A stretch of DNA of 47,124 nt, taken from a virus. The notes below the pieces were generated by a model, which searched no databases, had not been told where the DNA came from, and saw only the letters and a list, made by a program, of their open reading frames with translations. The DNA lies in the IMG/VR virus record IMGVR_UViG_3300025327_000052, positions 1-47,124 of that record; one strand, written 5' to 3'. Shown here piece by piece: positions 5,718 through 14,934 of this stretch (position 1 is the stretch's first letter; every line of letters begins with the position of its first letter). A program made the position numbers and the translations under genes.

Positions 5718-6137
5718 ATGTTCTATTGGCTCCCCAAGCCCAAGCGCGCACCGGTGGCACATTGGAGCGATTCTGAGCCGTTGATGCCTGAACTACCACG
5801 GCCACGCTTTCAGTTTATGACGCGACCGTCAGGGCGTCGGTGGACAACGTTTCACTCTGCCGATTACAGGTTCCTTCCACACAAGACGGCAGGAGTCTAC
5901 GTGTTCTATCGAGACCGTCGGCCTATCTATATCGGTCGGGCGCAGGACTTGAGAAAACGAATGATCGCGCACCGATGGAAGTTTGGAAACTGCGACTACG
6001 TGAAGGCGTGCATTCTGCGCCGGCATGAGCATCGGGCCTGGCTGGAACACCGGTTGATATCCAAGCTCAAGCCGTCGTGCAACGCGGTGATCTACCGGAA
6101 CGCTGGCGGGTGTCTCGTCAGATCGGAAGCCTACTAG
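5718..6137 (+). CDS. GIY-YIG nuclease domain protein
   Basis: A 139-residue protein whose C-terminal two thirds form a GIY-YIG nuclease: GVYVFY (59-64), YIGRA (71-75), the Arg79/Arg81 pair, catalytic-type Glu110 in WLEHRLISKLKPSCN and Asn122. All expected key residues are present. The first 50 residues are a separate basic segment. GAGAGG lies upstream of the ATG. Family members cut DNA as homing, repair or restriction nucleases. It sits directly before the replication gene (TAGTG overlap), so a role in replication-linked processing or homing is possible. Confidence 0.82.
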   Translation: MFYWLPKPKRAPVAHWSDSEPLMPELPRPRFQFMTRPSGRRWTTFHSADYRFLPHKTAGVYVFYRDRRPIYIGRAQDLRKRMIAHRWKFGNCDYVKACILRRHEHRAWLEHRLISKLKPSCNAVIYRNAGGCLVRSEAY

Positions 6138-7216
6138 TGGCATGGCTTCGTATTGATGATCGGTTTCGGACGCACCCGAAGATCCAGCGGGCGCAGCTCG
6201 GTGGGTGGCTGCACTTCTGCGGGATCAGTTATTGCCGGGAACACTTGACGGACGGACTGATCCCGCGTGAAGCCGTTGGCACGCTCGCCCCAGGCTTGAT
6301 GACGCCCTACAAGCACGCGGCCAGGCTCGTCGAAGTCGGCCTCTGGCACGAAGAGAAAGACGGCTTTCGAGTGCATGACTTTCTGGACTGGAACCCGACT
6401 CGGGATGAGGTAGAGGCGAACCGCGAATGGGGGCGCCAACGGAAAGGGCTCTACCGGGACAAAGACGTTACGGCCGCCGTGCGAGAGCGTGATCAAAGCC
6501 TCTGCCGCTACTGCGGCGCCCTTGTGAATTGGACCGACCGGCGTAGCGAGTTCGGCGGCCAGTTCGACCATGTGATCCCTCGCGGCCCGGCGACCCTAGA
6601 GAACGTCGTGGTGTCGTGTCGTGGCTGCAACATCCGCAAGAACGACAGAACACCAGATGAAGCCGTAATGCCACTTCTCCAAGTCGGAACTAGTTCTGGA
6701 CGCGAGAAAACTAGTTCTAAACGTCCCGTAACTAGTTCCCCTCACGCGAGCGCGCGTATAGGCGCGGGTGACGCGGGCTTGGGCTCTCTCTCTGGCTCTG
6801 ATCGCTGGGATCTGGATCTGCCGGAAGAGAGTCCGAGAGAAACCACGCCGCCGGTGTGGGTAAAACCTCACGAAACAGCTGGCGCGACCCCGTTACCTAT
6901 TCTGGACGGCCTACACCGCCTGCACGCCTGGTGCTGCTCTCGTGGCGTGTGTGTGCCGATAGGGCTGCACTCGGAGTTCTGCGGACGACTGGGGACGCCT
7001 GACGCTGATGTCAGGTTGCGGGCGTGGTATCCGGCCGTTGTGGCCCAGTTCGAGGGCCGAGGGATCGGGGATAACCTATTCCGCTTCTGGCAGCACGAGT
7101 TCGAGGGCTGGGTTGGCACGGTGACGAGTCGGCCGGCTGACATGAAGGCCGGCAAGGGTGCGCGCATGGTCGAAGCGTTCCGCACAGCCGGCGCGAAGAT
7201 CGGCGGTGGCACGTGA
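6137..7216 (+). CDS. Replication-organizer-like protein with central HNH nuclease domain
   Basis: GTG start in a TAGTG overlap with the GIY-YIG gene; 359 residues. Residues 1-95 (WLRIDDRFRTHPK, GLIPREAVGTL, a paired-helix region, DFLDWNPTRDEV) match the winged-helix N-terminal domain of phage replisome-organizer proteins. Residues 110-175 are an HNH nuclease (C123-x2-C126, Asp144-His145, C161-x2-C164-Asn165). A Ser/Thr-rich linker at about 185-240 is encoded by the 21-bp repeats at 6688-6738. The C-terminal part (about 265-345) has a conserved-looking FCGRLGTPDAD ... LFRFWQHEFEGW region. I infer origin binding and replisome loading, with a possible nicking activity. The next gene may be its loader partner. 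Confidence 0.7.
   Translation: MAWLRIDDRFRTHPKIQRAQLGGWLHFCGISYCREHLTDGLIPREAVGTLAPGLMTPYKHAARLVEVGLWHEEKDGFRVHDFLDWNPTRDEVEANREWGRQRKGLYRDKDVTAAVRERDQSLCRYCGALVNWTDRRSEFGGQFDHVIPRGPATLENVVVSCRGCNIRKNDRTPDEAVMPLLQVGTSSGREKTSSKRPVTSSPHASARIGAGDAGLGSLSGSDRWDLDLPEESPRETTPPVWVKPHETAGATPLPILDGLHRLHAWCCSRGVCVPIGLHSEFCGRLGTPDADVRLRAWYPAVVAQFEGRGIGDNLFRFWQHEFEGWVGTVTSRPADMKAGKGARMVEAFRTAGAKIGGGT
6688..6738 (+). repeat. Three 21-bp-spaced AACTAGTTC iteron-like repeats (candidate origin)
   Basis: AACTAGTTC occurs at 6688-6696, 6709-6717 and 6730-6738, each start exactly 21 bp after the last. The first copy extends to the perfect palindrome GAACTAGTTC. The repeats lie in a locally AT-richer stretch inside the replication-organizer-like gene, in its linker between domains, where they encode a TSS every seven residues. 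Lambda carries its origin iterons inside gene O in the same relative position. Origin function here is inference. Confidence 0.6.
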
Positions 7217-7761
7217 GCCTCGAACGCCGTCAAACTGCGCTCACGTTCCTCGGGCTGGCGCGGCAAGCCGATCCCGACAAGGACGTGGCCGCGGCCTACC
7301 TCTTGGCGCTGAACGACGTTGAGATTGACTGGCTGGAAGCGGCGTGCAACGAGTTAGCGCGAGAGGTTCGGCAACCGTTCGAGCCCGCCATGCCGGCTGT
7401 CGGCACGATCCTCGCCAAAGCCGGCACACTCAAGCGGCAGTCGGCAATGGTCGCTAGCCGGCGGGCCTTGCCGGCGCACCCAATCGATCACGACACGTTT
7501 ACGTGCTTTCAGTGCCAGGACGATACCGACGGCTGGCTGTTGCTGAAATGCCCGCAGACGGCGTGTGGTCGCACTCGTGAACACGCCGCACACCCGTTCA
7601 CCGTCCGCTGCCCGCATTGGCTCCGCGCACACGAGGACGGGATTCGCAACAGCGCCGCCGAACGCCGCAAGAAGAACCAGCCTATGACGTCGGAGTTTCT
7701 GGCGTTGCAGGATATAGCCTCTGGCGCCTATCGCTACGAACGCGCGGTGACGCAGCTATGA
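7213..7761 (+). CDS. Possible helicase-loader-like protein with zinc cluster (182 aa)
   Basis: GTG start in a GTGA overlap with the replication gene. The N-terminal half is helical (FLGLARQADPDKDVAAAYLL, LEAACNELAREVR, MPAVGTILAKAG), as in small phage loader or helicase-interacting proteins that track residues on the last MCM-like helices. The C-terminal half has a cysteine cluster (Cys98, 101, 113, 118, 133) that probably binds zinc. Position right after the initiator suggests it links initiator and helicase, but no family was recognised with certainty. Confidence 0.5.
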   Translation: MSLERRQTALTFLGLARQADPDKDVAAAYLLALNDVEIDWLEAACNELAREVRQPFEPAMPAVGTILAKAGTLKRQSAMVASRRALPAHPIDHDTFTCFQCQDDTDGWLLLKCPQTACGRTREHAAHPFTVRCPHWLRAHEDGIRNSAAERRKKNQPMTSEFLALQDIASGAYRYERAVTQL

Positions 7762-14668: not shown

Positions 14669-14758
14669 TGGCGGAAGGCAGACGACTCGAACGTCTGTGC
14701 GGCTTTCACCGCAGCCTCGGTTTAGCAAACCGGCCCGTTGCCGCTCCGGCAGCCTTCC
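14669..14758 (-). tRNA. tRNA-Ser (anticodon GCU)
   Basis: Read on the minus strand, GGAAGGC pairs with GCCTTCC as a 7-bp acceptor stem, followed by discriminator G and an encoded CCA. The anticodon loop TTGCTAA gives GCU (14724-14726 on plus), reading AGC and AGU. A long variable arm (TGCGG ... CCGCA) and the T arm AGACG-TTCGAGT-CGTCT are complete, as expected of a class II serine tRNA. 90 nt with CCA. Confidence 0.93.
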
Positions 14759-14769
14759 GCAAAAGAAAG

Positions 14770-14844
14770 TGGAGGTCCGCCCAGGACTTGAACCTGGAGA
14801 TGCTGCATTACGAGTGCAGTGCTGTGCCGTTGAGCCAGCGGACC
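14770..14844 (-). tRNA. tRNA-Thr (anticodon CGU)
   Basis: Minus strand. Acceptor GGTCCGC/GCGGACC, anticodon stem CTGCA/TGCAG with loop CTCGTAA (anticodon CGU, reads ACG), T arm CCAGG-TTCAAGT-CCTGG, discriminator T, encoded CCA. The D stem has three good pairs. 75 nt with CCA. ACG is a common Thr codon in this genome by eye, so the tRNA may support late gene translation. Confidence 0.93.
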
Positions 14845-14848
14845 GAAA

Positions 14849-14934
14849 TGGCGGAAGGGGCAGGAATCGAACCCGCTTGCGTGTGACCGCGCCAGTTTTC
14901 AAGACTGGGGGCATGCCGTTATGCCATCCCTTCC
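14849..14934 (-). tRNA. tRNA-Ser (anticodon UGA)
   Basis: Minus strand. Acceptor GGAAGGG/CCCTTCC, anticodon stem CCAGT/ACTGG with loop CTTGAAA (UGA, reads UCA), variable arm GCG/CGC, T arm GCGGG-TTCGATT-CCTGC, discriminator G and encoded CCA. 86 nt. It is the first gene of the block in the direction of transcription, 14 and 5 bases from its neighbours' pattern of tight spacing. Confidence 0.93.

Follow-up and report, generated by a model that had tools for sequence, protein, structure and literature searches.

Why does the gene for a phage replication initiator carry three identical 9-bp repeats, with a period of exactly 21 bp, or two helical turns? The repeats, AACTAGTTC, lie in the window analysed here, a stretch of 47,124 bp of viral DNA, and the original prediction was that the encoded protein binds its own gene at these sites, which would thus form the origin of replication. 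As had been predicted, the three copies are exact and in frame (positions in Table 1), and they encode TSS every seven residues, at residues 185-187, 192-194 and 199-201. A feature overlooked at that stage is that the core of the repeat, AACTAGTT, is a perfect 8-bp palindrome. When the window was searched for further copies, AACTAGTT was found nowhere else, the three copies at the repeats comparing with 0.15 expected from base composition. The tetranucleotide CTAG is itself depleted about six-fold in the window (26 seen versus about 153 expected). In addition, no other 9-mer in the 47,124 bp occurs three times at equal spacing (period 9-60).

The product of the gene is a phage replication initiator with a winged helix, an HNH domain, a disordered linker and a helical C-terminal region. 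Its residues 1-109 match the phrog_2447 replication initiation protein (E 1.3e-24), which bears out the earlier description of the gene as replisome-organizer-like, and the gene also matches the phrog_15463 HNH endonuclease (E 1.9e-35). Homologs, among them tblastn matches, occur in phages of Gordonia, Microbacterium, Arthrobacter and Brevibacterium and in further actinophages, with the annotation replication initiation protein, RepA-like replication initiator or HNH endonuclease. The lambda O family is absent from the Pfam matches and from the best 25 of the 27 PHROG matches. In the AlphaFold model, the N-terminal domain consists of helices 14-18, 22-36, 44-50 and 57-67 and strands 70-73 and 76-79. 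Its structural matches to winged-helix proteins (Z about 6-8) possibly reflect just a common arrangement, and the middling matches in the PDB are not taken as a sign of kinship. The HNH domain, which went unremarked earlier, follows the winged helix and precedes the linker; it scores 22.7 bits against Pfam HNH PF01844 (cut-off 21.4), and its structural match is the HNH nicking endonuclease 4h9d (Z 8.1). Considering that the repeats encode residues 185-201, they are located at the start of the predicted disordered linker, and the earlier placement in an interdomain linker holds if low pLDDT is read as disorder. Beyond the linker, helices are modelled with modest confidence at residues 253-268, 275-284, 290-308, 311-330 and 340-355; by analogy, this region may be the partner for a helicase or its loader. 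The next gene (7213-7761) matched no loader family and gave only a sub-threshold zf-UBP match; a role as helicase loader drew no support, families, phages and viral contigs yielding no match. Genes for the recombination proteins Erf and YqaJ are found near the initiator gene, and three tRNA genes (Ser-GCT, Thr-CGT and Ser-TGA) lie in a row at 14669-14934 on the minus strand.

Table 1. Features of the initiator gene and its repeats (window coordinates)
Feature	Position	Strand	Basis or remark
Gene for the replication initiator (359 aa); its GTG start overlaps the TAG stop of the preceding gene	6137..7216	+	phrog_2447, phrog_15463, tblastn homologs
Winged-helix domain at the N-terminus, residues 1-87, presumed to bind DNA	6137..6397	+	AlphaFold
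HNH nuclease-like domain, about residues 105-183, preceding the linker	6449..6685	+	Pfam and structure
AT-rich trough with all three repeats	6666..6739	.	45-47% GC versus 64.6% for the window
Predicted disordered interdomain linker, residues 184-250	6686..6886	+	pLDDT below 50 at 186-250 (AlphaFold)
Repeat 1, AACTAGTTC	6688..6696	+	10-bp palindrome GAACTAGTTC at 6687-6696
Repeat 2, AACTAGTTC	6709..6717	+	
Repeat 3, AACTAGTTC	6730..6738	+	
C-terminal helical region, residues 253-355	6893..7201	+	AlphaFold helices, modest confidence

The 60 bp beginning at position 6666 have a GC content of 45%, which places them in the bottom 0.2% for the window and confirms the local AT-rich patch. The trough is the repeat segment itself; the DNA just 3' of it is 65-70% GC, and no separate AT-rich tract was seen adjoining the repeats. 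Cumulative GC skew, proposed earlier as an origin signal, rises steadily and does not switch at 6.7 kb.

Repetition at the DNA level is widespread in this position among homologs. We assembled 111 family genes, including that of the window, and reduced them to 84 non-redundant genes at <80% identity, scoring exact 8-mer repetition in the linker against synonymous shuffles (p 0.05 or better). Repetition exceeded that of the shuffles in 39 of the 84 (the window gene included, p 0.005), where about 4 were expected. Among the 59 genes in which an array anchor could be used, the pass rate was 36% in the linker compared with 3% and 9% in N-terminal and C-terminal control regions, respectively. The lags between repeats cluster near 11-12, 23-24, 33-36 and 46 bp, and a period of about 11.5 bp fits them best; enrichment over shuffles is roughly ten-fold for lags such as 11, 23, 35 and 46. 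All of these figures are descriptive, since limits and thresholds were chosen within the analysis, the genes are related and lags within a gene are non-independent. Arrays resembling iterons, whose cores include CGCGTGAC and GTGAGTCAC, were seen at L126:3325-3417 and L115:3310-3420 (approximate limits); the L126 array has a period of 11 bp, so that the repeat ignores the reading frame. The homologous gene of Brevibacterium phage AGM7 (L005:3290-4279) contains five annotated 198-bp coding repeats, and PMC9331655 cites a paper on tandem repeats in such phages. When viral and genome contigs were scanned with single sequences, neither close relatives of the window gene nor a second genome carrying it came to light; one contig that shares an identical structural gene (L138) is without the initiator, but its record is only 27.8 kb long. 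Of the homologs that carry the HNH domain, the two nearest, L045 and L133 (42-44% identity), have no comparable cluster in the linker: the former has no repeats and the latter one weak pair.

As a positive control, the same statistic was applied to the lambda O gene, where it recovered the annotated iterons (lags 20, 23 and 44) at the equivalent place within the gene, the parallel on which the original prediction had drawn. When viral contigs were searched for three copies of AACTAGTT close together, 14 stretches emerged; in two unrelated O-like initiators (L025/L026/L030 and L021/L023) the triplets lie in the linker, with lags of 22, 23 and 45. The initiator of L025/L026/L030 belongs to phrog_678, and the gene that follows it in L025 encodes a DnaC-like loader; the profile of the window family matched neither O-like initiator. 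Since many of the 14 stretches are intergenic or lie in simple-repeat proteins and are hence uninformative, we regard the O-like triplets as a parallel and not as proof.

Could the repeats be bound for a purpose other than replication? An operator for a repressor, or a site at which the initiator regulates its own gene, would be consistent with short, helically phased palindromes, which suit a dimeric regulator. The sole other ACTAGT in the window (6133-6138) overlaps the GTG start codon of the initiator; it might represent an autoregulatory half site or else a product of the TAG-GTG overlap, and the latter, which accounts for it in part, weakens its value as support for an operator. Moreover, the repeats are 550 bp into the coding region, away from any start, and homologs as well as unrelated initiators carry repeats at the same linker position. 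We therefore consider a regulatory site in place of an origin unlikely.

Alternatively, selection might act on the peptide, a flexible TSS-rich linker in which the identity of the DNA stems from recent duplication. The repeats are in frame with a seven-residue period, and low-complexity linkers are common in proteins. The codons used, however, are uncommon in the phage (ACT and AGT make up 6% and 12% of their families), and the same rare codons recur in all three copies while the 12-bp spacers differ. The differing spacers argue against a recent tandem duplication and, together with the reuse of rare codons, make it look as if the DNA rather than the peptide is conserved. Given the peptide and the codon usage of the phage, three identical 9-mers arise with a probability of about 3e-4 in simulations, and the exact AACTAGTTC set did not occur in 2 million codon-usage draws. 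Relatives that keep TSSxxxx over unrelated DNA, which according to the original prediction would have spoken against an origin, were not seen: TSSx4TSS is absent from all other genes of the non-redundant set. In many homologs the lags, such as 11, 23, 35 and 46, are not divisible by 3 and cannot be produced by a peptide repeat. A purely peptide-level explanation is thus very improbable.

Partition and packaging systems, too, make use of phased palindromes, and recombination genes are close at hand, so that a site for partition, recombination or packaging might have come to lie in the initiator gene by coincidence. The initiator itself best accounts for the position within an initiator linker, common to the family and to other initiators, and we give such a coincidence very little credence. 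Chance is the least credible explanation, since equally spaced 8-mer triples arose in 2 of 300 dinucleotide-preserving shuffles but 9-mer triples in none, and the sites are palindromic, unique and confined to the one gene in which an origin is expected.

Taken together, these data support the reading of the repeats as initiator-binding iterons of a lambda/SPP1-type origin inside the initiator's own gene, to which we assign a probability of roughly three in four. The window shows phased repeats within an initiator gene, between the regions encoding its domains, as in a gene-internal origin. The winged-helix domain would bind the three AACTAGTT palindromes, probably as a dimer on each, and the 21-bp spacing would align all three along a single face of the helix. 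Bound initiator might then wrap or bend the AT-rich segment, this segment or nearby DNA would be opened, and the C-terminal region could recruit the helicase machinery. Speaking against an origin are the small number and size of the sites (three of 8 bp), the GC-rich 3' flank, the lack of a skew switch, the next gene with its lack of loader matches, the failure of the scans to turn up a second genome with the gene, and the two nearest HNH-bearing homologs without such repeats.

An origin of this kind is a known arrangement, to which the window would add a case. Iterons within the initiator gene have published precedent in lambda O and the Stx phages (PMC7466680), and in SPP1 the direct repeats of oriL, to which the initiator binds, are located within the gene that encodes it, gene 38 (PMC6316719). 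As in lambda, whose copies are 20-24 bp apart (39034, 39054, 39078 and 39101), the candidate iterons of the window are placed midway through the initiator gene; however, lambda has four 18-bp iterons flanked by an AT-rich tract, whereas the window has three 8-9-bp palindromes and no such flank, and its protein differs from lambda O in carrying an HNH domain and in having no O family among its Pfam matches. The candidate sites resemble SPP1 oriL in being repeats within the initiator gene, but in SPP1 the AT-rich unwinding element is defined, the loader and helicase genes are known, and there is a second origin, oriR. For mycobacteriophage RepA systems, whose RepA possibly belongs to another family, one study saw no repeats in the stretch it analysed and proposed that the origin might be located within repA or immediately upstream of it (PMC7157519). 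For actinobacterial phages, we found no origin with this layout in the literature searched.

With the actinophage RepA-like/phrog_2447 family the window protein shares a homologous N-terminal domain, and linker DNA repeats occur in many members; most members differ from it in lacking the HNH domain and in possessing 5-bp-phased CCC arrays. Runs of CCC (or GGG) phased at 5 bp, at least four in a row, were present in 57 of the 84 family genes, as against about 7% of synonymous shuffles, and were about 155 times denser in the initiator gene than in its flanks (58 in 70 kb versus 2 in 374 kb). In most homologs these CCCNN arrays (GGGNN on the opposite strand) directly follow the linker repeats on the 3' side and encode PTRPDPTRPDP-like peptides; they lie within the initiator genes of L011, L012, L016, L034, L036, L048, L086, L088, L115, L127 and others. 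In the HNH-bearing L004, L005, L007, L008, L009 and L113, the array is reversed, with GGGNN on the coding strand and nearer the C-terminal end, and in several HNH-bearing homologs it encodes GSGRVGSG-like peptides. That the two intervening bases vary and that the G-rich strand is sometimes the coding one points to DNA-level constraint on the arrays, as judged from sequence. The GGGNN strand could form a G-quadruplex or provide an element for loading or unwinding. The initiator gene of the window contains no CCCNN array and no G-quadruplex motif. No published description of 5-bp-phased arrays was found in the part of the literature covered, by a search aimed at other subjects.

We suggest tentatively, at somewhat less than even odds, that a large family of actinophage initiators has an undescribed intragenic origin, in which iterons of about 11-12 bp spacing precede a 5-bp-phased CCCNN array, and that the window represents a divergent member with 21-bp-spaced palindromic iterons and without the array. 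For an uncharacterised phage, the repeats provide a concrete origin candidate, and the family analysis extends this to candidate origins for many actinophages.
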